DNA from: a virus
DNA: 24,089 nt
IMG/VR virus record: IMGVR_UViG_3300035162_001325
Location: 1-24,089 of that record
Strand: one strand, 5' to 3'
Positions 8,259 to 23,225 of this stretch are shown in pieces. A program made the position numbers and the translations under genes. Positions within the stretch are counted from its first letter, which is position 1, and each line of letters begins with the position of its first letter. Below the pieces are notes generated by a model, which searched no databases, was not told the origin of the DNA, and saw nothing but the letters and a program-made list of their open reading frames with translations.

Positions 8259-8870
8259 ATGGCAGAACTTGCAGTAGCCGCGAGCGTTGTCAGCGCGATA
8301 GGCACCATGAAATCGGGCTCGGCTCAGAAAGCGATGTACGACGCCCAGGCCGCGCAAACGATGGTTCAAGCGCGCAGCAACGTGATCAAGTCGCGGCGTG
8401 AGGCTCTCAAATACAAACAGGACGGGGTCGCTGTCCTGGATAAAATGCGAAAGACAATTGCAACCGTTTCCGCGCGCGGCGCAGCCGGATCCATTGACCC
8501 ATTCAGCGGATCCACCGGCAACCTCCAGATCAATATATTTGACCAGGGATACTTGGATTTCTCGATCAATACAGACAATACGAACATGGCGCGCGAAAAC
8601 ATGAACATCATACAGAAATCCGCCGAGTATCAGGCCGGGATCTATCGCGCGGCAGGCAAGCAAGCCAAGCAATCGGCAATGTTTAAAGCGGTTTCATCTG
8701 TCGCGATGGCGGGTTTTAATTACGGACAGGGGTTTGTTGGTGGCAGTGCTGGTGCGGGCATAGGTAGCGCTGGCCAATCAACCAGCCAATTCGTGTCGGG
8801 TTACGGCGCACCGATAGGCGGCGGTCCTGCTGGGTTTAGTCCTGGTGGCTCTGGGTACAGTACAATCTGA
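8259..8870 (+). CDS. Internal virion/core protein (T7 gp14-like)
   Basis: The 203-aa product is about the size of T7 gp14 (196 aa) and occupies the same place. It begins with an alanine-rich hydrophobic stretch (MAELAVAASVVSAIGTMKSG) that could insert in membrane, followed by a long helix with many Ala, Gln, Lys and Arg. The middle carries VSARGAAGSIDPFSGSTGNL and the glycine-rich C-terminus (about residues 155-200) looks flexible. In T7 the homologous-position protein is ejected and forms a pore in the outer membrane. The Shine-Dalgarno is GGTGGG about 7 nt before the ATG. The stop overlaps the next gene (TGATG). Confidence 0.75.
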   Translation: MAELAVAASVVSAIGTMKSGSAQKAMYDAQAAQTMVQARSNVIKSRREALKYKQDGVAVLDKMRKTIATVSARGAAGSIDPFSGSTGNLQINIFDQGYLDFSINTDNTNMARENMNIIQKSAEYQAGIYRAAGKQAKQSAMFKAVSSVAMAGFNYGQGFVGGSAGAGIGSAGQSTSQFVSGYGAPIGGGPAGFSPGGSGYSTI

Positions 8871-11140
8871 TGGCCCCCAGATATCCCACATATCAACGGT
8901 CGGCACAGCTAAGCGCCAGCATTGTCACGCCGCCCAACATCGACCAGGCCGCTCTCCGCGAACAGGCCAAAGGTTACGCCAGCATGGCGGAAGGCGCCGA
9001 CCGCGTGATGAATTTCGCGTTCAAGGAAGGTGAGAAAAGAGCAAAATCTCGCGGCACAGCATCCGGTGCGGCAGATCCGACAGGCACTCTTGAGCAATTC
9101 GGCGGTCAGCGGCCAGTAAGTAATTTTGAGCAACAGGCCGCATTCGACGCGGCGGTGGGTTTGGCGTCTGTCGAGATCGAGACGGAAGCGCGCGTGGCGA
9201 TGCAGCAGACAATGCTGCGGTACCAGAAGGACAAGGGCAACCCGCAGGATTTGCAGCAGGAGCTCGACGACATCCGCGAGGGTTACGCCAGCGCTGTTGA
9301 TGATCTCGATCCGCTGTCTGCCGCCAAACTGAACGCGAAACTCAGCGCAGCGGGTCAATCGCTATTCCTGAACTATTCCGCTGATGATCTGCGTGTGCAG
9401 GAAAAAGAGCGCCAGGCGCAGGGCGAGGCACTGTTTGCCGATGCCAAACGCGAGGCCGATACCCTGGGGCGCCAAACCGGATCCGATGACGACCTAGCGA
9501 CGATGCTCGCATATTACACCGACAGCGCCGAGCAACTCGGCCAAACCGGCACACCCGCTTTTGCGCGCCGCATCGAGACAATCAAAAACGATTTTCATAT
9601 TGCTCGCGTTCGCGGTGCGTTTGAAAAGTCAGGTGACAAAGAAACGTTCATCGAAGAATTCCGCGACGACCTGGACAAAGGCACGGGCCTGGCGCGCGGT
9701 TTATTCGAGGCCGACAAGAAGACCCTGGGCAACGAGCAACTGACCTGGATGCGTGGCGACCTGGCCGCGAAAAGACGCGCAGCGACAGAACATAAAGCGC
9801 AGCTTCGGGCTGACATTAGAGATATCGGAAGCGATGTTCGCGAGATCAACAAACTTGTAGGCCAGAATTTCGAGCAAGGTCGTGAAAAAATTGCAAGGCT
9901 GGTGAAGCGCGCCACCGACACAGGCGATAAAGAATTAGAAAGAGACGCCCTCGCGCTGCAAGCAAATGTGGCAACCATGTCGTACTTTCGCAAAGCCTCG
10001 CCTATGGCGATTCGCGCAGCAGCAACAGCATTCGAGAAGCAAGCAAACGCGGATCGTGACGTAAATCCATTTGAAGCCTCCCGGATCACGATGCTGCGGA
10101 AAATGGCAGATGCCGCCGAGGCAGGGCTCAGCAAAACCGCTGATTACCATAACGAAGTAAATCCCGAGGCGCCGTTCGCGCCCATCACACCGGACTCCCG
10201 TTCAATGCAATCGCGCGTCGAAGCGGCGGACGATTTTGCTGTTTCGATGGGGCTGCAACGAGCTCAGACATATCTCACGACCGGCGAAGCGAATTTTTAT
10301 GGTGATCGGTTGGCCGATTCAGACACTAATGAACAGATCGCGATATTTACTCAGCTATACGCCGGGTTCGGCAAGGCAACGCCGACAGTCATGCAGCAGA
10401 TTGCCAAATCCAATCCTATTGCGGCGCGGATCGGTGGGATGACGTATGCCAGCGGCGACGTGGACTTTGCTCGTCAAACACTCAACGGTTTTAACGCGAT
10501 GAGCCCTGGACCTGGATTACCGGGCCAAACATTAGAAAAAGAAAACAGTGATGTCATAGAAGCGGAGATCGCCAGGGTTATGCCGAATATGCCTGGTGAC
10601 GAATATGCCAGAGTGTTGCGTACAGCCGAAGCTGCCGTAATTGGATCGCGAATTGCTAAGGCGCCGCTCGATGTTGGTAAACTCGACGTAGTTGAAAAAC
10701 TGGTGAACCAGGTGCTCGGCGCGAAGTATGTCAACGGTGAGCAATTTGGCGGCGCAGCTAATTATAGCGGTCGCTCCGTGATGGTTCCCAATTCCGTCCG
10801 CGCAGAGGGTGGGCTCGAGGATCTGATCAAGGGAAGACGTGTCAACGCGCCAATGCGAGGGCGACAGACGGGGACTTCGGGATTCTCTCGGGGTGTTACG
10901 GATTATCAAGGCGGCATAACCGGTGAAGAATTAGCCGATATAGGTATCGTTTTATATATGCGCGGCAAGCCTATCGCCATCGATGACAAGTTCCGCGAAT
11001 CCATCATGCCGAAAACCTTCGACGGCAAATCTGTCTATCTGACCATCGGCAACACCGACCAGGCGCTACAAGATGCTAACGGTGATTATGCGCTGATCGA
11101 CCTCGATGCCTTGATGAACGTTCGCAACGCGGGGTACTGA
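8870..11140 (+). CDS. Internal virion protein (T7 gp15 position)
   Basis: The 756-aa product is close in length to T7 gp15 (747 aa) and sits between the gp14-like and gp16-position genes. The opening PRYPTYQRSAQLSASIVTPPN and NIDQAALREQAKGYASMAEG-type helix are familiar from podovirus core proteins. The rest is predicted largely alpha-helical, rich in Ala, Asp, Glu, Lys and Arg, without a signal peptide or clear membrane segment. I see no lytic transglycosylase motif. Such proteins are stored in the capsid and ejected to build the periplasmic channel for DNA entry. The start shares a base with the preceding stop, and its stop overlaps the next start in the same way, suggesting matched production of the core proteins. 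Confidence 0.72.
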   Translation: MAPRYPTYQRSAQLSASIVTPPNIDQAALREQAKGYASMAEGADRVMNFAFKEGEKRAKSRGTASGAADPTGTLEQFGGQRPVSNFEQQAAFDAAVGLASVEIETEARVAMQQTMLRYQKDKGNPQDLQQELDDIREGYASAVDDLDPLSAAKLNAKLSAAGQSLFLNYSADDLRVQEKERQAQGEALFADAKREADTLGRQTGSDDDLATMLAYYTDSAEQLGQTGTPAFARRIETIKNDFHIARVRGAFEKSGDKETFIEEFRDDLDKGTGLARGLFEADKKTLGNEQLTWMRGDLAAKRRAATEHKAQLRADIRDIGSDVREINKLVGQNFEQGREKIARLVKRATDTGDKELERDALALQANVATMSYFRKASPMAIRAAATAFEKQANADRDVNPFEASRITMLRKMADAAEAGLSKTADYHNEVNPEAPFAPITPDSRSMQSRVEAADDFAVSMGLQRAQTYLTTGEANFYGDRLADSDTNEQIAIFTQLYAGFGKATPTVMQQIAKSNPIAARIGGMTYASGDVDFARQTLNGFNAMSPGPGLPGQTLEKENSDVIEAEIARVMPNMPGDEYARVLRTAEAAVIGSRIAKAPLDVGKLDVVEKLVNQVLGAKYVNGEQFGGAANYSGRSVMVPNSVRAEGGLEDLIKGRRVNAPMRGRQTGTSGFSRGVTDYQGGITGEELADIGIVLYMRGKPIAIDDKFRESIMPKTFDGKSVYLTIGNTDQALQDANGDYALIDLDALMNVRNAGY

Positions 11141-14100
11141 TGTTTCTCTCCCGCACAGATGAAATCCGCGCAATATCCGAGGCATCGCTGACCCCTGCCG
11201 AGGGTTATGAAACCGGGTTTATCGAGAACCTGAACACAAGCATAGACGCTGTTAGATTTCTCGATACGCATCGAGCCGAGCAAGATGCCATCATCAAAGT
11301 GCTCGAGCCGTTTGTCGAAGCTGCGGGGAGTGATCACAATCCTGGATTTTTCCGCGATGCTCTAAACGGTTCGTCCCGTGCTCGCGCAACGGGCAGACTG
11401 CGGCAATTTGATGAGATTGATGAAGCCTCGATGCCGGAGGCGCCGTTTTACGAATACCGTATGCGGTTGCAAAAGATGAACGCCGCGCTCGAGGCCGAAG
11501 GCAAGCCAACAATTTCCGAGGAGCAGGTCAACGAAAAGGCGCGCGAAATAGCGTTGAAAGCGCGCTCTGACCAGCAGGATATATCCTCGCGCTCGACAAC
11601 CATGGGCGATGTCGGCTCACTGTTGGGCGGCGCTTATTCAGAGATGCGGTCCCTGCTCCGCTCTCCGGCTGCGCCGAGCCTGGTTGCTGGTGCATCGATC
11701 AAAGCTGGGATTCTGAAAACCGCACTGGTCGAGGGCGTGATCGGCGCAAGCCAGGTGGCACTGGCACAGCCCGATGTTGCGAAATGGTACGGATCGCTCG
11801 GCCTCAAATACACCTCCGAAGATTTCCAGCGCAACGTGTTTAGCGCTTTTGTTGGCGGCGCTGCGTTCGGTGGATTGGTCAAGAGCGTCATTAAAGTAGC
11901 GCCGATTGCTCGGGATTACGCTGATCCCGTGGGTGCGCTCGGTCGCGAGATATCGAAGCAGGTAGACGAAACAAATCTATTCGAGGTCGATCAGGCGCTC
12001 CGAAACATGAGCGAAAAGGATGCGATTGCCGGTCTGAAAGCGCTCGAGAAGGCTGGCGTCCCGATCAACAATGAAGCCGCTGCGGTGATCCGCCAGGTGG
12101 CAAACGATGACGCTGACGAGAACCCGCTTCTCGGTGACGGCCTCGATGCCCAGGCTGAGCACCTCGAGCGCCAGTTAGCCGTAGAGCTCGCCCTGGACGC
12201 CGACGAGATCCCGGTGCTGACGGACAAGCCAGCAATCCCGCCGAAGGTTCCCGACGACATCAATCATTACGACAATCTCGATGGTACTGTTTTCCGTTTT
12301 GATCCCGACGAGATCGGGGTCGATGCGGAGACATTCCAATATAAAAGCGGCGGCGATCAACAGGGCGTGACCGACAAGTACCGCGCAACAACAGTCTGGG
12401 ATCCGTTCAAGGCGGGTCAAATTCTTGTTTACGAATACGCTGATGGGCGGAAAGTGATCGCTGATGGGCATCAACGTCTTGGCATGGCAAAGCGGATTAA
12501 GGCCGCAGACCCATCTCAGAAGGTAATTCTGTACGGTAGCGTTTTGCGCGAGCAGGACGGAATAACGCCTGAGATGGCAATGGTGATTGCGGCGAGAAAA
12601 AACATCACCGAGGCAATCGACGCCCCAGGCAACAAAGTCATAGATGCGGCCAAACTCGAGAGATCGGTGCCTGGTGCGTTGGACGATCCTTCTTTACCAG
12701 TTGGCACGAGTTTAATACGGACGGCCCGTGACCTGGTAAATCTGTCCGACGAAAATTTCGGCATGGTCGTCAATGAAATCGTACCGGCAAACTATGCGGC
12801 AATTGTTGGGCGACTAGTCGATGATCCGGGCAAACAGAACGCGATCCTGCGGATCCTGGTAGAAACAAACCCGGCCAACGTTACCCAGGCCGAGGCCATT
12901 GTCCGCCAGGCGCGTCAAATTGAATTTCGTGAGGCGACCCAGGAAGGTCTATTCGGCACTGAGGAATTCACAAAATCGTTGTTTGCCGAGCGCGCCAAAG
13001 TTCTCGACGCCACACTGAAGCGGCTGCGAACCGACAAAAAAGTATTCAACAGCCTGGTCGAAAACCAGAACCGCATCGAGGCGGAGGGCAATCAGCTCGA
13101 CGCCGACTCAAATATCTCCAGGAGCATGACAGATGGCCAAGCGCTCGAAATCATCGCGGCGCAAGCAGACCGCAAAGGCGGCATCGCCGACGCCCTCAAC
13201 CTCGCAGCGCGTGAGCTCGCCGATGGCAGACCCCTCACAGAAGTCAGCCGCAACGTTGCCGATGCTGTCAGACGAGCAATTGACGACGGCGATATCGATG
13301 GCTCAACTGTACGTCTTCAAGGACGCGGTATCGATGTTGAAGCGGAAGGGGATCGCCTCGCGGCAGGTCCAGAACGGCTAGACGAATTTGACGAGCCAAA
13401 CGGCAAAGGATCTCAGGACCAGGCCGATGCGTCAGAAACGACACTGCGCGAGGAAACGGAGATCACAGAGGCCGCTCAGCCGGACGAAGCGCTGCGGGAA
13501 GACCTTGGGCGCGTAGTCGATGAGGGTGCAACGCCGGAACAGATTGACGCGCATCCAGCGGTCACGGACGCCCTCGAGCGCGCTATGGCAATCCCTCTCA
13601 CAAAAGAGGTTGAGGGCTATGGCGGCGATGCCTGGCGCGCCGGTCGAGAGTTTCGCTTTGGCAATGAAACGGTTGTCGGCTACGAAGCCGGTGTGCAGCG
13701 TTTATATGAGAACGCGAAACGGCTCGGCTGGGAGGATGACGGTAAAACTTTCCCTGGGCAGATCGAACAAGGCCGTCGCGCGACGATCATGCTCGGCCCT
13801 CCTGCCAGCGGTAAATCCTATTTTGCCAACAAAGTTGCCCAGGCGCGCAACGCGGCAATTGTAGATAGTGACGAAGCCAAAAAGGTATTGCCGGAATACG
13901 GTGGCGGGATTGGCGCTACGGCTGTTCACGCAGAAAGCACCACACTGGCCGAAGAAGTTTTGCGTAAAGTTATATCGAACGGCGATAATTTCGTAATACC
14001 GCGCACAGGTAAGGCGTTAAGCGAAATAGAACCGATCATCGCGCAGTTAAAAGAGAACGGCTATGAGGTCGATATCATTTTGATGCAGGTCAGCGCCGAC

Positions 14101-14670
14101 ACTGCTTACACGCGCATGATTAGCCGATTCATTAAGACCGGCAGATTGATACCGCCCGACGTTGTGCGTGGTGTTGGTGATAATCCACAGATCACATATA
14201 ATGCAGTTAAATCAAAGGCAGACAGATATGCCCAAATCGAAAACGAAAGCCCCATCGACAGCGCAAAAGGCGTCCTCGATGAAGGCCCAGACAGCCCCCT
14301 CCAAGACGTTGACTTACGACTACGACGAGGATCAGAGGTTAGCGGACGAGAGCCTGATCGCCTGGATGCGACAGAACCTACCGCCCAAGGTGAACAAGCC
14401 TTAATCGAGGGCGTTGCCCCTATTACATCTGCGACACGCGCCCAGGCCGGTGTTGATGCACCCATGTCAGGCGGCGCTCGGCCTATGGATGAGGGTCTAT
14501 TCGACACTGGATCGCGCGCGCAGATGGATCTCCTGGACATGGCCATTCCTGTCGGACAGCGCATTGATGATGCCGGTGAGCTCGTCGCCGAGACCCAATC
14601 CGTGCGCGATATCCTGACTGAATTTGATAACGACAAATCCATGCTCGACAGATTGAAGGATTGCGTATGA
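11140..14670 (+). CDS. Large internal virion 'polyvalent' protein: ParB/DdrB-like plus zeta-toxin-like kinase
   Basis: This 1176-aa protein lies at the T7 gp16 position, so it is probably packaged and ejected. Residues 1-380 look like a core protein, with small-residue-rich segments (e.g. VFSAFVGGAAFGGLVKSVIK). Residues about 390-510 resemble a ParB/DdrB-like domain: VWDPFKAGQILVYEYADGRK followed by IADGHQRLGMAKRI, with DGHQR at 442-446. Residues about 875-1015 resemble a zeta toxin-type kinase: Walker A GPPASGKS at 886-893, candidate catalytic acids in VDSDEAKK (D909, D911), HAES at 930-933, and R992, R996 and R1002 in RMISRFIKTGR. Zeta toxins phosphorylate UDP-N-acetylglucosamine; the substrate here is unknown. 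Linkers are acidic. The architecture fits phage 'polyvalent' proteins that act in the new host at infection. Domain calls are by motif recognition only. Confidence 0.8.
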   Translation: MFLSRTDEIRAISEASLTPAEGYETGFIENLNTSIDAVRFLDTHRAEQDAIIKVLEPFVEAAGSDHNPGFFRDALNGSSRARATGRLRQFDEIDEASMPEAPFYEYRMRLQKMNAALEAEGKPTISEEQVNEKAREIALKARSDQQDISSRSTTMGDVGSLLGGAYSEMRSLLRSPAAPSLVAGASIKAGILKTALVEGVIGASQVALAQPDVAKWYGSLGLKYTSEDFQRNVFSAFVGGAAFGGLVKSVIKVAPIARDYADPVGALGREISKQVDETNLFEVDQALRNMSEKDAIAGLKALEKAGVPINNEAAAVIRQVANDDADENPLLGDGLDAQAEHLERQLAVELALDADEIPVLTDKPAIPPKVPDDINHYDNLDGTVFRFDPDEIGVDAETFQYKSGGDQQGVTDKYRATTVWDPFKAGQILVYEYADGRKVIADGHQRLGMAKRIKAADPSQKVILYGSVLREQDGITPEMAMVIAARKNITEAIDAPGNKVIDAAKLERSVPGALDDPSLPVGTSLIRTARDLVNLSDENFGMVVNEIVPANYAAIVGRLVDDPGKQNAILRILVETNPANVTQAEAIVRQARQIEFREATQEGLFGTEEFTKSLFAERAKVLDATLKRLRTDKKVFNSLVENQNRIEAEGNQLDADSNISRSMTDGQALEIIAAQADRKGGIADALNLAARELADGRPLTEVSRNVADAVRRAIDDGDIDGSTVRLQGRGIDVEAEGDRLAAGPERLDEFDEPNGKGSQDQADASETTLREETEITEAAQPDEALREDLGRVVDEGATPEQIDAHPAVTDALERAMAIPLTKEVEGYGGDAWRAGREFRFGNETVVGYEAGVQRLYENAKRLGWEDDGKTFPGQIEQGRRATIMLGPPASGKSYFANKVAQARNAAIVDSDEAKKVLPEYGGGIGATAVHAESTTLAEEVLRKVISNGDNFVIPRTGKALSEIEPIIAQLKENGYEVDIILMQVSADTAYTRMISRFIKTGRLIPPDVVRGVGDNPQITYNAVKSKADRYAQIENESPIDSAKGVLDEGPDSPLQDVDLRLRRGSEVSGREPDRLDATEPTAQGEQALIEGVAPITSATRAQAGVDAPMSGGARPMDEGLFDTGSRAQMDLLDMAIPVGQRIDDAGELVAETQSVRDILTEFDNDKSMLDRLKDCV
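13133..13381 (+). CDS. Candidate overprinted gene inside the polyvalent protein gene (first)
   Basis: An 82-aa ORF in the +1 frame relative to the host gene starts at ATG 13133, with AGGAG at 13120-13124 giving an 8-nt spacing. The first half is basic and Ser/Pro-rich (MAKRSKSSRRKQTAKAAS), which could be a shadow. The second half reads like real protein (LSDEQLTTAISMAQLYVFKD, then AVSMLKRKGIASRQVQNG). By hand count, host-frame codons across the second half have G or C at the third base in only 15 of 42, against 25 of 39 directly after the ORF ends, as expected if another frame constrains those bases. It falls in a linker, host residues 665-747. No function is suggested. A biased linker without a second gene is the alternative. 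Confidence 0.35.
   Translation: MAKRSKSSRRKQTAKAASPTPSTSQRVSSPMADPSQKSAATLPMLSDEQLTTAISMAQLYVFKDAVSMLKRKGIASRQVQNG
14228..14404 (+). CDS. Candidate overprinted gene inside the polyvalent protein gene (second)
   Basis: A 58-aa ORF, in the same +1 frame as the candidate at 13133, starts at ATG 14228 (AAAGG at 14214-14218 is a weak Shine-Dalgarno). An in-frame ATG at 14201 is an alternative start. The start is Lys/Ser/Ala-rich and resembles the other candidate; the end (YDYDEDQRLADESLIAWMRQ, then NLPPKVNKP) looks like an ordinary acidic helix plus tail. Host-frame codons over 14314-14400 are unusual for this phage (runs of CGA, CTA, TTA, GGA; G or C at third base in 11 of 33). It lies after the kinase domain, host residues 1030-1088. 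Function unknown; it may be only a shadow. Confidence 0.33.
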   Translation: MPKSKTKAPSTAQKASSMKAQTAPSKTLTYDYDEDQRLADESLIAWMRQNLPPKVNKP

Positions 14671-17129
14671 GCGATTTATTAACTTGCATCGCCAACGGCA
14701 TCACCGAGGGATCGATCACACCAGAACAGGGCCGCGCAGCCGGCGAAATGTTTGAGAATATCCGCGATGCGTTGACTGACCGTATGGGTCCAGAAGCCGC
14801 ATCAGCCAGCGCAGCGCGTCAAACGTTTGACCAGCTTGCCGCTGACGCAGCGCATAAAAAGCGCACGAAGCTGATGCAGATCCAACGATATCGTTCTCTC
14901 GAGCGCAGCATGAATGAGTTTGAGAGCGACAAGCCAGGCAAGGCGCTCCAGGCACTCATCTCTGAAGATCCGCGCGCAAATTATCAAAACCTTGATGGGG
15001 TCTATGACGGCACGCGCAAAGCAGTATTTGCGGAAATGGATCAAATCCTGGGCCGATATCGAAAGGGCGTCGTTGGCCAAACCAGGTATTCAGCCGAGCT
15101 CCCTGCCCTAGTCAAAGAAGTATTTGGCGAAAGCACCGGAAACGTTCCCGCCCGCGAGATGGCAGAGGCGTGGCGGATGGTGTCGGATACACTACGGAAG
15201 CGCGCGAACGCCGCAGGAATGCGGATCCCGAAGCGCACCGATTGGGGTTTGCCGCAATCACACGATATGCTCCTGGTCAGAAAAGCCAGCTCGGACGAAT
15301 GGAAAGAATATATTCGCGGGCGCCTTGATCCGGGAAAAATGATTGACGAAAACACCGGGCTTCCCATGACACCGGAAACCCTTGAGCTCGCGCTAACTGA
15401 GATCTACGAGACAATTACCACGGGCGGACTAAACAAGATCAACGAGCCGCAGTTTCATGCCGTTGGCAAGTCACTGGCTAACCGCCGCACTGATCATCGA
15501 TTCCTGGTTTTTAAAGACGCGGACTCTTGGCTCGAGTATCAGCAGAAATTTGGCGAACCTGATCCGTTTGCGACAATGATCCGGCATGTCGAAAGCATGA
15601 GCCGCGACATTGCGACGCTTGAGGTTTTTGGGCCTAATCCGGCTGCGATGGTCACAGCACTGAAAATGCGCGCCAAGAAAATGGTCGTAAACACTGGCGG
15701 CGAAAAAAGTCTCCAGGGCGATTTAAGTAAATTCGACGCGATGTTTGATTCATTCAGCGGAGCCGCCAACGTCGCCGATAATCAGTTATATGCAGATTGG
15801 GGCGCTGGCACTCGCAATATCATAAATTCGTCATTACTCGGTGGCGCATTTTTGACAGCGTTGTCGGATCTCAGCAGTCAGCGCATGGCCGCGATGATGG
15901 TCGGAATGCCGCAGACAAAACTGCTCAGCAAAATTATCGCAGAATTCTCCCCGCTCAACATCGAGGAACGCGGTCGCCTTGCAGTTCGCCTCGGCCTGGG
16001 CGCCGATAACTGGATTTCGACTGCTTACGCCCAAGCGCGGATCTTCGGGGAGGTAACAGGCCCGGAGGTGACGCGCCGGATCAGCGACACGGTTATGCGG
16101 GTGTCAGGCCTGTCTCCCTGGACCCAGGCCGGGCGCCAGGCGTTCGGAATCGAATTCACTGGCTATCTGACTGATAACATCAAACGGCGCTTTGACGAGC
16201 TCGACAGCGGCTTGCAAGATATGATGCGCCAGCAAGGTATCGGCGCTGATCGATGGGATATCATTCGTTCAACCCCGCTGTACAAAGATGCCGATAGCGG
16301 CATGACGCTTCTCCGGTTCTTGGATGTCGAAAAGCGCACCGACTTGGCGCCAGGTCTTGCCAGGGAAATATCTACGCAGGGAATGTCCCTGGTCAAAGTT
16401 CTGACGGACCTTGCCGTACCGATGAGCTCTACACGGGCTCGAGCTTCACTTGTCGGCACAACGAAAGGCGGTTCGCTGTCGGGGGAAATTATGCGCAGTT
16501 TCGCGCAATTCAAAAACTTTCCCGTGACCATTTTTCACGAACATATTCATCGGTATTTCCTTATGGAAAGCGGCGCGAGCAAGGCGAAGTACATGATGAA
16601 TTTCGTCATCGGCACGACCGTCATGGGCGCCCTGGCGCTGCAACTTAAAGACATGGCAAAGGGCCGAGATCCAAGGCCAATGGATAACCCGGCATTCTGG
16701 TCTGCGGCAATGCTCCAGGGTGGTGGGCTCGGCATATTTGGCGATTTCATGTTCAGCCAGGTTAATCGGATGAACACCGGATTGAAGGGGGCCATTGCCG
16801 GGCCGAGTGTTGGTATGTTGGACGATTTCAGAAATTTGACACTCGGAAATCTGACGCAACTTAGCCAGGGTGAGGATACGAAATTCGGCCCGGAGCTGGT
16901 AAAATTCGCCTCGAGATACACGCCAGGATCATCGATTTGGTATTTGCGCGCCGGGCTCGAGCGACAGTTATTCGACCGGCTCCAGGATTGGGTTGATCCA
17001 GATGCGGCAAAGAAGTTCCGGCGCAAGGTCAAACTGTACGAGCGGGAATATGGGCAAGGAATGTGGTGGGCGCCCAACGAGAACCTGCCCAGCCGCGCAC
17101 CAAATTTTGAGAATGCGCTCGGACAATGA
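14667..17129 (+). CDS. Large internal virion protein (DNA-ejection/core type)
   Basis: The ATG at 14667 (ATGA overlap with the previous stop, GAAGGA 6 nt upstream) gives 820 aa. The N-terminal 120 residues are charged helix. Hydrophobic stretches occur near residues 386-415 (SSLLGGAFLTALSDL), 642-662 (YMMNFVIGTTVMGALALQL) and 675-700 (AFWSAAMLQGGGLGIFGDFM). Between them is FAQFKNFPVTIFHEHIHRYF, a segment I recognise from large podovirus core proteins that end the internal-virion operon. Together with the preceding 1176-aa protein it occupies the place of the single T7 gp16 (1318 aa). It may insert in the inner membrane as the last part of the DNA conduit. No lysozyme or transglycosylase motif is visible. 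Confidence 0.7.
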   Translation: MSDLLTCIANGITEGSITPEQGRAAGEMFENIRDALTDRMGPEAASASAARQTFDQLAADAAHKKRTKLMQIQRYRSLERSMNEFESDKPGKALQALISEDPRANYQNLDGVYDGTRKAVFAEMDQILGRYRKGVVGQTRYSAELPALVKEVFGESTGNVPAREMAEAWRMVSDTLRKRANAAGMRIPKRTDWGLPQSHDMLLVRKASSDEWKEYIRGRLDPGKMIDENTGLPMTPETLELALTEIYETITTGGLNKINEPQFHAVGKSLANRRTDHRFLVFKDADSWLEYQQKFGEPDPFATMIRHVESMSRDIATLEVFGPNPAAMVTALKMRAKKMVVNTGGEKSLQGDLSKFDAMFDSFSGAANVADNQLYADWGAGTRNIINSSLLGGAFLTALSDLSSQRMAAMMVGMPQTKLLSKIIAEFSPLNIEERGRLAVRLGLGADNWISTAYAQARIFGEVTGPEVTRRISDTVMRVSGLSPWTQAGRQAFGIEFTGYLTDNIKRRFDELDSGLQDMMRQQGIGADRWDIIRSTPLYKDADSGMTLLRFLDVEKRTDLAPGLAREISTQGMSLVKVLTDLAVPMSSTRARASLVGTTKGGSLSGEIMRSFAQFKNFPVTIFHEHIHRYFLMESGASKAKYMMNFVIGTTVMGALALQLKDMAKGRDPRPMDNPAFWSAAMLQGGGLGIFGDFMFSQVNRMNTGLKGAIAGPSVGMLDDFRNLTLGNLTQLSQGEDTKFGPELVKFASRYTPGSSIWYLRAGLERQLFDRLQDWVDPDAAKKFRRKVKLYEREYGQGMWWAPNENLPSRAPNFENALGQ

Positions 17130-18306: not shown

Positions 18307-19641
18307 ATGACCGCCATCCGTCTCAGATATACTGAAAGCGACGATCCTCGCGTTGATGAGAGTGGTAACGCTCGCGTTGGCGAAGGACACTTCGTGGACG
18401 GGCCGCGCATTGATGAGGCGGGTAATGATCGCATCAGTGAGGCGGGTGATGCTCGTATCACCGAGCAGTACGCAGAGGCGGCTACCGCGTTAGCTGCGTC
18501 TGGGTCAATCGCTGGTGCGGCACTGAGATCGACTATCGGCGCTACTGCTCTATCTGCGGTTGGGTCAAAATTAAGTGCCGGAGAGCGCACAGCGTTTGGC
18601 GCTGTCGCACTCAGCGCAACCGGCACAATTGCAGCGGCGGGTCTACGGTCAACTACGGCTGCGATTGCGCTGTCGGCTGCTGGATCGGCAGCGGCAGATG
18701 CGGGGGTATTCCTCGACGCTGCAACAGCACTATCTGCGACCGGCTCGAGATCGGCTGCGGCACTTCGGTCAACGACAGGTGCAGCAGCCCTCGCGTCAAC
18801 TGGATCGCAAATAGTGGCCGGAGCGCGCACAGCATTCGGCGCTTCTGCTCTCAGCGCAACCGGCACGATTGCGGCGGCTGGGTTGCGGTCAACGATTGGC
18901 GCTGTCGATCTAGCTGCGGTCGGGTCAAAAATATTTGCCGGTGAAAAGGTAGTGTCCGGCGCCGTCGCATTCAGCGCCTCTGGCACGACTGCGGCTGCGG
19001 CACTGCGCTCAACGGTAGGTGCATCTGCCCTGGCGGCAACCGGCTCGCAAATAGTGGCCGGTGGGGTGGAGACGTTTGGTCTAGCTGATCTATCCGCTAA
19101 CGGAAGCGGCTCTTTCGACGCCTCCGTCAACCGAAAGGGCTTTGTCAGTGTATCCGCAGCCGGATCTATGTCGTCGGCAGCGGCCCGCAGCACATCAGGC
19201 GCATCAGCACTTTCTGCGGCTGGGCAATTAGCCGCCGCTACTACAACTACACGCGTTGGCGCTGCGGCGCTGTCGGCTGCGGCATCTATGTCACCGGCAT
19301 CCACGATCACCGTGACAAGTCTGTTCTCGGCCACGGGTACTGTTGCCAGTGTCGCGTTGTTGCAGGCTGACGCAGCGGCTGCGATGTCAGGTTTCGGAAC
19401 TCTTACCGCAGCAAACAGCAATATCACGGCTAACGCACCACTCAGTGCAGTGAGTTCAAAGCTCTCAGCAGGAGAACGAACGACGTTCGGGCATATGGCA
19501 GCTAGTGCGTCGGGCGTGATAACGAATGAGGCAGAATTAACGATGTTCATTCATGCGGCTATGTCGTCGGCAGCAAACATTCAGGCCTCCGAGGCTGTTT
19601 ACAAAAACGCGCATTTCGATCTGTGGGGGGCTGTCGGTTAA
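18307..19641 (+). CDS. Repetitive fibre shaft-like protein with 20-residue repeats
   Basis: This 444-aa protein has a short N-terminus with three octapeptide repeats (DESGNARV, DEAGNDRI, SEAGDARI), then from residue 61 a strict 20-residue period: thirteen repeats in exact register to residue 320, followed by about five looser ones to residue 417 and a 27-residue end. The repeat consensus is A-L-S-A-x-G-S/T-x-x-x-A-G-x-R-x-x-x-G-A-x, with two alternating flavours (AALRSTIG and AGERTAFG types). Strand-turn spacing suggests a beta-solenoid or fibrous shaft, which is inference. It has Ala, Gly, Ser and Thr in great excess and almost no Cys, Trp or Pro. It lies among fibre genes, so an adhesin or fibre role is likely. 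Confidence 0.75.
   Translation: MTAIRLRYTESDDPRVDESGNARVGEGHFVDGPRIDEAGNDRISEAGDARITEQYAEAATALAASGSIAGAALRSTIGATALSAVGSKLSAGERTAFGAVALSATGTIAAAGLRSTTAAIALSAAGSAAADAGVFLDAATALSATGSRSAAALRSTTGAAALASTGSQIVAGARTAFGASALSATGTIAAAGLRSTIGAVDLAAVGSKIFAGEKVVSGAVAFSASGTTAAAALRSTVGASALAATGSQIVAGGVETFGLADLSANGSGSFDASVNRKGFVSVSAAGSMSSAAARSTSGASALSAAGQLAAATTTTRVGAAALSAAASMSPASTITVTSLFSATGTVASVALLQADAAAAMSGFGTLTAANSNITANAPLSAVSSKLSAGERTTFGHMAASASGVITNEAELTMFIHAAMSSAANIQASEAVYKNAHFDLWGAVG
18355..18459 (+). repeat. 24-nt (octapeptide) repeats at the start of the repetitive fibre gene
   Basis: Three copies encode [D/S]E[A/S]G[N/D][D/A]R[I/V]: 18355-18378, 18412-18435 and 18436-18459, the last two in tandem. 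A related run (RVTEAGVPRSIE) begins the protein encoded at 19641. Motifs like R-I-T-E-D/A-G repeated in short tandem are frequent in phage tail proteins and may be attachment or assembly elements. Confidence 0.6.
18487..19557 (+). repeat. 60-nt tandem repeats coding for 20-residue units
   Basis: Each 60-nt unit encodes one 20-residue repeat. Units four apart are especially alike: the DNA around 18608-18655 and around 18848-18895 differs at few positions, and ATAGTGGCCGG-containing units near 18810 and 19050 are also close, a higher-order period of 240 nt. This pattern implies growth by duplication and could let the gene gain or lose units by recombination. Confidence 0.8.
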
Positions 19642-22059: not shown

Positions 22060-22451
22060 TTGGACTGATCGCAGGACTTGTGAAACCCCTCGTTGGTGGC
22101 GTGGTTGATTACGTTACCACCGGGCAAGAGATCAAAAAGGCCGAGAAGGAGAACCGCGCCCGGCTTATGAGGGACAAGCAAAGCAATAACCACGATTGGG
22201 AGATGGCATCGCTCGCCGATAAGGATAAATGGCTGCGCCGCATTTCGTTTTCAATGTTTTCCGCACCTTTCGTCTGGGCGTTGTTTGATCCTGTCGGCGT
22301 CGAAACGTATTTTACAATCGCTCTGAGTTCTGTCCCATCCTGGTGGTTAGAAATGTATGGCGCGATGGTCGGCGGTGTGTGGGGTATTTCGGCGCTAAAG
22401 AACACTATGCCAGCGCTGGTCGGCGGTGTGGCGAAAGCCCTGCGTAAATGA
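22056..22451 (+). CDS. Holin, three-transmembrane (GTA-holin-like)
   Basis: The 131-aa protein has a hydrophobic N-terminal segment (IGLIAGLVKPLVGGVVDYV, residues 2-20), a charged middle (EIKKAEKENRARLMRDKQ), then two clustered hydrophobic regions (ISFSMFSAPFVWALFDPVGV, residues 63-82, and MYGAMVGGVWGISAL, residues 100-114). This matches the three-helix holin family also found in gene transfer agents. Holins open the inner membrane to release the cell-wall enzyme. AGGAAGG precedes the ATG. It overlaps both neighbours by four bases, and the lysozyme follows at once, as in a standard lysis cassette. Confidence 0.75.
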   Translation: MIGLIAGLVKPLVGGVVDYVTTGQEIKKAEKENRARLMRDKQSNNHDWEMASLADKDKWLRRISFSMFSAPFVWALFDPVGVETYFTIALSSVPSWWLEMYGAMVGGVWGISALKNTMPALVGGVAKALRK

Positions 22452-22903
22452 CCTTCCTCGAGCAACTGACCGAGATCCTGCATCGCGAGGAAGGTGAGGT
22501 CTTGGCGCTATACGACGATCACCTGGGCAAAAAGACTGCTGGCTGCGGGCACCTGCTGATCGAGGCGGATGGCGATCTGTTCGATGCGCCGCTCGGTACA
22601 CCTATCAGCCAGGAGCAAAGCGATGCCTGGTTTAAGCAAGACGTTCAGACCTGTATCAATGATGCGCGGTGGCTGCACCCTGACCTCGATGATCACCCCC
22701 AGGCGGTCGGCGTCGTGATCAGCGCGATGGCCTATCAATTAGGTCTGCCATCTCTGAGCCGGTTTAAATTATTTCACCAGGCAATCCAGGACCGGATATA
22801 CGACCGGGCGGCGGATGAAATGATCGACAGCAAATGGGCTCGCATTGATACCCCTGCCCGAGCGAAGCGCATGAGCTGGATGATCCGAGCGCTTGCGGCC
22901 TGA
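22448..22903 (+). CDS. Endolysin: T4-type lysozyme (GH24 muramidase)
   Basis: The 151-aa protein aligns by eye with T4 lysozyme (164 aa). The catalytic triad Glu-8-Asp-5-Thr is present as E15, D24 and T30 in REEGEVLALYDDHLGKKTAG, followed by the CGHLL motif with G34 and H35. C-terminal SKWARIDTPARAKRMSWMIR matches the T4 segment S-x-W-x-x-x-T-P-x-R-A-K-R. It hydrolyses the glycan backbone of peptidoglycan at lysis. No signal peptide or SAR anchor is visible, so it depends on the holin encoded just upstream, with which it overlaps (ATGA at 22448-22451). Confidence 0.9.
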   Translation: MTFLEQLTEILHREEGEVLALYDDHLGKKTAGCGHLLIEADGDLFDAPLGTPISQEQSDAWFKQDVQTCINDARWLHPDLDDHPQAVGVVISAMAYQLGLPSLSRFKLFHQAIQDRIYDRAADEMIDSKWARIDTPARAKRMSWMIRALAA

Positions 22904-23225
22904 GTCACACATTGCTGGCGACCTGGCCGAGACGCTGGCAGCGGCGCATTATATTCGGCTGGGTTATTTCACGTTCACCCCACTTTCGAGCTCGAGCCCC
23001 ATTGATTTGGTGATCGTCAACGCCGACGGGACGCGGTTGATCCAAGTCAAAAAGAACTCCGAGCGCGTCAATCCAGGTCGGCGCCATCCAACGCGGATCA
23101 ACCGAAAGCGGACGGCCTTACAAAAATCGCTCGGCGTGCAGATGGTGTATGTCGATATAGCTACCGGCAACGTTGCAGAGACTGACCACGATTATCTATC
23201 ACGCGGAAAAGCCGATACCGTCTAA
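22893..23225 (+). CDS. PD-(D/E)XK-like nuclease with QxK motif
   Basis: The 110-aa product reads like a small PD-(D/E)XK-fold nuclease: E13 in a helix (GDLAETLAAAHYIRLGYFTF), SSPIDLVIVNADG with the active-site D38, then LIQVKK with Q51 and K53 in place of the usual E-x-K. The QVK form is known in some homing-endonuclease-like and resolvase-like members, so activity is possible. The role could be DNA branch resolution, late cleavage or homing. The frame has no ATG near its 5' end; TTG 22893, inside the lysozyme 3' end, is the likely start, but a later start cannot be excluded. Its 3' end overlaps the minus-strand regulator gene by 27 nt. Confidence 0.65.
   Translation: MRPESHIAGDLAETLAAAHYIRLGYFTFTPLSSSSPIDLVIVNADGTRLIQVKKNSERVNPGRRHPTRINRKRTALQKSLGVQMVYVDIATGNVAETDHDYLSRGKADTV

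Follow-up and report, generated by a model that had tools for sequence, protein, structure and literature searches.

A probable internal virion protein of epsilon15 type and likely carrier of exchangeable effector enzymes

The stretch analysed here (24,089 nucleotides, positions 1 to 24,089 of the IMG/VR virus record IMGVR_UViG_3300035162_001325; hereafter the window) encodes, among the structural genes of a podovirus, a protein of 1176 residues that we call P. We consider it likely that P is an internal virion (ejection) protein in the gp16 position of an epsilon15-type operon, and that it doubles as the vehicle for a swappable effector enzyme. Sequence comparison shows a conserved scaffold, made of an N-terminal region, a ParB-fold core and a C-terminal tail, that holds one variable cassette. 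An original prediction, made from the window alone, had described P as a polyvalent protein with a zeta-toxin-type kinase, and this architecture stands: a zeta-family kinase and a ParB-fold core share one large polypeptide of the late structural operon, and the DGHQR (442-446), GPPASGKS (886-893), VDSDEA (908-913), HAES (930-933) and RF..GRLIPP (996-1006) motifs are correctly placed. The kinase was thus recognised, but not that it is one of several interchangeable cassettes, nor that P has its sole cysteine at the C-terminus.

Close relatives of P document the exchange. A search of IMG/VR with an alignment of the core gave 366 relatives, and the 80 best were retrieved; near full-length P is conserved among IMG/VR relatives (residues 22-1176, E=0, 64-65% identity). 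In 385 genomes of the Aquisalinus class, a search added just two matches, both weak, in frames of 1929 and 1995 codons. Cassettes were classified in 97 proteins with sequence beyond the core, a few of whose loci share contigs. The kinase is present in 44, a cassette denoted R1 in 30 (nine of these with an extra segment, PAR2), R2 in eight, R1 together with R2 in one and an ART-like cassette in one; six have none and seven are unclassified. Proteins with cores that are 100% identical can carry different cassettes: kinase in L056 and R1 in L065 (preceding 300 residues 99% identical), R1 in L087 and R2 in L088, kinase in L059 and R2 in L068, the DNA of the last pair showing 99.2% identity ahead of the cassette and 99.1% beyond it. 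The kinase of L003 and the R2 of L028 are held by cores that are 94% identical, with DNA flanks of 89% and 84%. The DNA alignments of swap pairs break sharply some 135-170 bases past the core and resume ahead of the stop codon. On a tree of 68 cores, a quick one with some long branches, the cassette type must have changed at least 23 times.

The contigs are of metagenome origin and the breakpoints lie at conserved borders, both of which would fit cassette differences between near-identical contigs that arose as chimeras of metagenome assembly. However, several pairs (L003/L028, L051/L053, L088/L094, L080/L086) have flanks that differ by 10-20% on both sides while the cassette alone is swapped; these are therefore separate lineages, which speaks against assembly chimeras. 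Cassette types also recur across many independent contigs and branches, and we regard the chimera explanation as very improbable.

A search from the kinase side identified seven proteins of 720-752 residues at the same operon position that possess kinase and tail without the ParB core, which is therefore also a module. The N-terminal region is kept in one of them (L147, matching P residues 121-254 with E=8e-15). Other arrangements were seen as well. L023 shares its R2 cassette and tail with L022 but has a more divergent core, possibly reflecting further recombination or a frameshift. In L010, L011 and L012 a protein of 2080 residues has the same core and the C-terminal cysteine, but continues for about 1175 residues after the core; this part contains an ART-like stretch and the motif HEVGEH, which resembles that of metallopeptidases, and gave zero Pfam matches.

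The assignment of the kinase is firm at the level of family. The Pfam model PF06414 (Zeta_toxin) scores 71.2 bits on P (curated cut-off 22.3), and a profile of the kinase relatives searched against solved structures places zeta toxin first (1gvn, E=4.8e-12), ahead of Pnkp1 (E=4e-10) and PezT (E=1e-7). The positions of K892, D911 and R996, equivalent to the Walker A lysine, catalytic aspartate and lid arginine of zeta, are invariant in 19 divergent aligned kinases, and the residues for ATP binding and the catalytic base are intact in P. R1002 is invariant in the family as well, though it lies beyond the stretch aligned to zeta. The position of zeta E116 is occupied by proline in all 19 aligned members, P954 in P, and that of R120 by Lys958 in P at a site that is not conserved within the family, which has H.ES and P..G as motifs private to it. 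Replacement of E116 by alanine in zeta abolishes both toxicity and ATPase activity (PMC6356619). By sequence, then, the enzyme belongs to the zeta family, but its substrate site is unlike that of the UDP-N-acetylglucosamine kinases. A UDP-sugar kinase, as first suggested for P, now looks doubtful: phosphorylation of UDP-N-acetylglucosamine finds no support because the essential glutamate of zeta is proline here, and the substrate is probably not UDP-N-acetylglucosamine in the zeta manner.

This bears on the possibility of classical zeta action, in which the injected kinase would phosphorylate UDP-N-acetylglucosamine and weaken the wall or stop growth, so that DNA would enter more easily or rivals would be held back. 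Membership of the family, the retained Walker A lysine and catalytic aspartate, and an earlier suggestion by Iyer et al. on zeta domains carried by polyvalent or MuF proteins (PMC5512222) are in keeping with such a role. Beyond the substitutions and private motifs just described, a related zeta domain beside ParB in the archaeal halovirus HCTV-5 argues against it. The archaeal host of HCTV-5 has no murein. Taken together, classical zeta action seems unlikely to us. The HCTV-5 protein is gp114 (L019), annotated with zeta and ParB domains and encoded between the portal and capsid genes. The kinase family was also observed on other phage proteins that do not have the tail (L166, L155, L172-L176, L182, L188, L194); among these, L166 also has ART-PolyVal and L194 also has LPD38. 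In cyanophage PSS2 a zeta domain is joined to MuF.

The R1 cassette is a relative of Tas1/Apk1. Its sequence matches Tas1 (6ox6) with E=1e-17, and its structural model (predicted local distance difference test score, pLDDT, of 94.4) has Tas1 and alarmone synthetases as the top Foldseek matches (E=1.8e-8). Tas1/Apk1 is a (p)ppApp synthetase, and Tas1 an ATP-depleting bacterial toxin. The spacing of the D..R and E.Q residues of alarmone synthetases (PMC12691689) is retained in most R1 members, the glutamine being missing in L029, L047 and L060 of the PAR2+R1 group. D..R and the glutamate are retained in both R1 and R2. R2 looks like a second synthetase-type domain, but no identity could be assigned to it against the PDB. 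The similarity that ties it to R1 is weak (68% probability and E=5e-5 in hhalign; R1 model on L098, E=2.6e-4), and R2 is probably a distant relative of R1. The ART-PolyVal match of L084 is also weak and falls under the curated cut-off (E=0.0058). PAR2 is an 85-residue segment ahead of R1 in L029, L047, L060, L065 and L087, with an LDGNSTYAIA motif and the look of a second ParB/Srx-type segment.

The identified cassettes, whether kinase, synthetase-type or ART-like, are all nucleotide-using enzymes, and this suggests host nucleotide metabolism or nucleotide-based defences as their target. Kinase and synthetase folds could instead be inert spacers, the cassette being structural or packaging filler in the ejection core. 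Cassette-less proteins do exist, and the glutamine of E.Q has been lost in the R1 of the PAR2+R1 group (L029, L047, L060), as filler would allow. Inert spacers would not, however, be expected to keep the Walker A lysine, catalytic aspartate and lid arginine invariant in 19 divergent kinases, or D..R and the glutamate in R1 and R2, nor would unrelated spacers be expected to be nucleotide-using enzymes in every case. Filler is accordingly an improbable role for the cassette.

The ParB-like core was recognised through structure. By sequence, the ParB-like part of P has zero Pfam matches, and a profile of the core, searched against the PDB, brought up nothing but TAL-repeat and coiled-coil noise. 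Residues 394-712 have a match in phrog_10691 (E=1.6e-57), whose members are giant proteins of 3925 residues. AlphaFold2 was run on residues 386-720 with an alignment of 39 relatives and gave a model with a mean pLDDT of 84.8. The top 27 places in a search of the PDB with this model are all ParB/Noc (best E=6.9e-4, probability 1.00), over roughly 110-220 aligned columns and with template modelling scores of at most 0.59 to the target and a moderate 0.2-0.4 to the query. Most of these alignments extend into the helical part behind the nucleotide-binding part. Among viral structures, the model is matched best by other large proteins of phages, several of which bear annotations of large polyvalent protein associated domains. 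The segment had been predicted as DdrB/ParB-like; the model upholds the ParB/Noc fold, whereas the DdrB-like identity was dropped, since PF18763 (ddrB-ParB) found nothing at E<=10 in the window genome or the records of six relatives. Judging from the pattern, ADGHQR appears to occupy the place of the GERR motif of ParB. The glutamate of ParB is required for CTP hydrolysis, and the structure of a ParB E93A variant is present among the matches of the core model. The counterpart of this glutamate in P would be histidine.

The position of P rests on its neighbours. The window contains a podovirus head-tail module, identified by Pfam and PHROG, with a portal (Head-tail_con, E=2.2e-95), a capsid protein, two tail tubular proteins and a gp14-like protein. 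P directly precedes a homologue of phrog_684, phiV10p20 and epsilon15 gp17, and this places it in the gp16 position of an epsilon15-type operon. Of the 112 phage records that the gp17-like protein matches, 88 align with 80% or more of its length; phiV10, SPN1S and phages of Pseudomonas, Yersinia, Vibrio and Pelagibacter are among the matches. In phiV10, p18 holds the gp15 position and is followed by p19, whose annotation records similarity to epsilon15p16, and then by p20, the gp17-like match; the order gp14/gp15-like, P, gp17-like is preserved in most loci of sufficient reach. A search for variants of the slot with the gp17-like protein as query gave three loci only, and the protein in the gp15 position had zero matches in the phage collection at E<=0.01. 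The genes are tightly packed, the P start sharing TGATG with the stop of the preceding gene and the P stop sharing ATGA with the start of the next, an overlap that makes 14667 the likely start of that gene. P had been placed in the gp16 slot of a T7-like core operon. Its place among ejection protein genes is borne out; the gp17 match makes the operon epsilon15/phiV10-type and the slot that of epsilon15 gp16, not T7 gp16. Pfam finds in P no N-terminal lytic transglycosylase domain such as that of T7 gp16. In epsilon15, gp15 and gp17/16 are listed as parts of the packaging/injection apparatus (PMC12391199), and the internal proteins are reportedly ejected upon infection (PMC8954989). By analogy, P would be a virion component packaged beside the gp15-like and gp17-like proteins and ejected at infection.

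A virion that delivers enzymes related to toxins might also serve as a polymorphic toxin system, with growth-inhibiting toxins directed against competitors or used to shift the outcome of infection, as proposed for the MuF toxins of temperate phages. The cassettes indeed have toxin folds (Apk/Tas1, ART and zeta) in common with MuF and type VI effectors, and their exchange is modular. In MuF systems, a small immunity open reading frame stands behind 89% of the toxin genes (PMC5576092). The four-base overlap of P with the gp17-like gene occurs in 37 of 37 kinase forms and most other forms, leaving no room for a gene between them in any cassette class; the MuF-style small immunity gene is therefore missing at that site. 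Nor is an antitoxin gene found next to P, both neighbouring genes overlapping it, and Pfam finds no MuF domain (PF04233) in P. Use as a polymorphic toxin is the most serious of the alternatives, although we judge it distinctly less likely than not.

The C-terminal tail of P carries a further feature, recognised here and not a published hallmark of gp16-position proteins. The penultimate residue is the sole cysteine of P, and residue 7 is the sole cysteine of the gp17-like protein. Of the P proteins that are complete, 78 in number, 77 have a cysteine among their last ten residues and 74 have no other; all 66 complete gp17-like proteins with a placeable start have exactly one, within the first ten residues. 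The same pairing of lone cysteines in the gp16-position protein and gp17 occurs in phiV10 (C596 of 600 with C5), SPN1S (C596 with C5), Shamal (C634 of 640 with C5), YeP5 (C423 of 430 with C5), JSF33 (C386 of 390 with C5), K300 (C384 of 391 with C5), SI2 (C790 of 792 with C6) and ZCVPP1 (C612 of 615 with C7); the loci compared were L021, L105-L109, L112 and L016 together with the window. With the exception of SI2, the gp16-position proteins of these phages were not among the matches to P in the phage collection. A by-product of gene overlap was considered and rejected: the lone cysteine persists without overlap (SI2, phiV10) or without adjacency (ZCVPP1), and since the ZCVPP1 genes are non-adjacent, overlap cannot explain the pair. 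Single-chain fusions of P and gp17 were absent from the longest proteins, and the giants of at least 2671 residues have no cysteine.

These observations suggest that the tail of P contacts the start of gp17, probably through a putative disulfide. More tentatively, and at somewhat short of even chances, epsilon15-type podoviruses may possess a two-chain ejection protein, in which the C-terminal cysteine of the gp16-position protein is joined to the N-terminal cysteine of gp17, probably by a disulfide that forms within the virion or the periplasm. The pair would then be the functional counterpart of single-chain T7 gp16. If this is correct, the cysteine joint lets the effector end be exchanged with the conduit end untouched. 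The pair, present also in laboratory phages such as phiV10, offers a simple biochemical handle on how the epsilon15-type ejection machine holds together.

We propose that P, packaged beside the gp15-like and gp17-like proteins, would be ejected at infection with its tail meeting the N-terminus of the gp17-like protein, and that the cassette would enter the cytoplasm. The kinase cassette might there phosphorylate a substrate of nucleotide type, be it a nucleotide or nucleotide sugar, NAD(P) or the end of a nucleic acid, and in the first minutes host nucleotide metabolism would be altered or a defence blunted. Exchange of the cassette would be expected to track differing host defences or rivals. 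Several points weigh against this proposal. Some members have no cassette and others no ParB core, so the basic virion role depends on neither. The large gp17-like protein, and not P, could be what truly corresponds in function to T7 gp16. All genomes with the kinase form are metagenomic sequences or metagenome-assembled genomes, and the phage collection holds no cultured phage matching more than half of P and no match with both the core and the kinase of P.

Table 1. Coordinates of P, its parts and neighbouring genes in the window
Feature	Position	Strand	Basis or remark
gp14-like internal virion protein	8259..8870	+	phrog_418, E=5.5e-8
Protein in epsilon15 gp15 position, 756 residues, zero cysteines	8870..11140	+	Frame and position
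P, gp16-position protein, 1176 residues	11140..14670	+	Single open frame, 1176 codons
N-terminal ejection-type region, residues 1-385	11140..12294	+	Most hydrophobic stretches near residues 190-257
ParB/Noc-fold core, residues 386-720	12295..13299	+	AlphaFold2 model, structure matches; invariant ADGHQR, later KNI motif
DGHQR motif of the ParB-like core	12463..12477	+	Invariant in alignment
Constant linker LDEFDEPNGKG, a short way 5' of cassette	13378..13410	+	Alignment of relatives
Swappable cassette, residues ~773-1078, kinase in this phage	13456..14373	+	Bounds from L003/L028 DNA breakpoints
Zeta-toxin-family P-loop kinase, residues 881-1027	13780..14220	+	Pfam PF06414, E=1e-19
Walker A GPPASGKS, K892 = zeta K46	13795..13818	+	Alignment to zeta
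VDSDEA, D911 aligned with zeta catalytic D67	13861..13878	+	Alignment to zeta
VIPRTGK, P954 at place of zeta essential E116, K958 at place of R120	13993..14013	+	Alignment
SRFIKTGRLIPP, R996 aligned with zeta R158; R1002 probable counterpart of R171	14122..14157	+	Alignment
Constant C-terminal tail, residues 1079-1176, ending DNDKSMLDRLKDCV	14374..14667	+	Alignment of relatives
Codon of Cys1175, sole cysteine of P (1175 of 1176)	14662..14664	+	Sequence
gp17-like virion protein, phiV10p20 homologue	14667..17129	+	phrog_684, E=1.2e-175
Codon of Cys7, sole cysteine of gp17-like protein	14685-14687	+	Sequence
Core-less kinase proteins			L147, L150, L160, L164, L167, L171, L186

Elsewhere in the window, positions 22893-23225 encode a small PD-(D/E)XK nuclease-like protein (PDDEXK_5, E=7.4e-6) whose gene overlaps that of a lysozyme (22448-22903). 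The gene at 18307-19641 encodes a 444-residue protein with many alanine-rich, ALSATGT-like repeats, probably a tail fibre or adhesin; the 420-residue frame that runs antiparallel to it is probably an artefact of its composition.

The ejected proteins of short-tailed phages are known mainly as DNA conduits. P looks like a carrier of exchangeable effectors, with payloads that are relatives of bacterial weapons: the zeta kinase, the Tas1/Apk synthetase and ART. Near-identical phages that differ in payload alone make the contribution of a virion-delivered enzyme testable through natural swap pairs.

That different toxin-like domains ride on virion proteins is already known from polyvalent proteins and MuF toxins. 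Phage polyvalent proteins (Iyer et al. 2017, PMC5512222) are likewise large products of late genes, each with several enzymatic domains unrelated to one another, and are predicted to be injected; the list of their domains includes ParB-like, zeta-like, RelA/SpoT and ART. P differs in occupying the epsilon15 gp16 slot without a recognisable peptidase, and its family has one defined cassette position, a C-terminal tail that stays constant, and swaps among proteins that are otherwise nearly identical. The giant polyvalent proteins of Ruegeria phage 45A6 and Halocynthiibacter (3900-5300 residues) share a ParB-fold core that is 42-43% identical, but are multidomain and have no C-terminal cysteine, that of 45A6 having zero cysteines. 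MuF polymorphic toxins, including Apk2 (PMC5576092, PMC12226406), also use a virion-associated carrier with interchangeable toxins, (p)ppApp synthetases among them. The MuF carrier is a portal-associated minor head protein, whereas P is a podovirus ejection protein without a MuF domain, with an internal rather than C-terminal cassette and no small immunity gene behind it.

The gp16 proteins of epsilon15/phiV10 (phiV10p19, SPN1S_0018) stand in the same position between gp15 and gp17 and have the single C-terminal cysteine (C596 of 600), but are 600 residues long, have zero Pfam domains and belong to PHROG families other than those of P. The zeta/PezT toxins have the fold, Walker A motif, catalytic aspartate and lid arginine in common with the kinase of P, which is set apart by proline for E116, lysine for R120, the H.ES motif, the lack of a neighbouring antitoxin gene and its location inside a virion-type protein. 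Tas1/Apk1, a Pseudomonas type VI effector, is related in sequence and fold to the R1 cassette of close relatives of P; there R1 sits on a phage ejection-type protein, and the cassette of the window is the kinase. In the open-access library searched we found no account of the features that set P apart, which does not itself establish that none exists. P departs from the known systems in its slot among podovirus ejection proteins, in holding the cassette internally with a constant part on either side, in lacking the immunity gene and in the pairing of lone cysteines.

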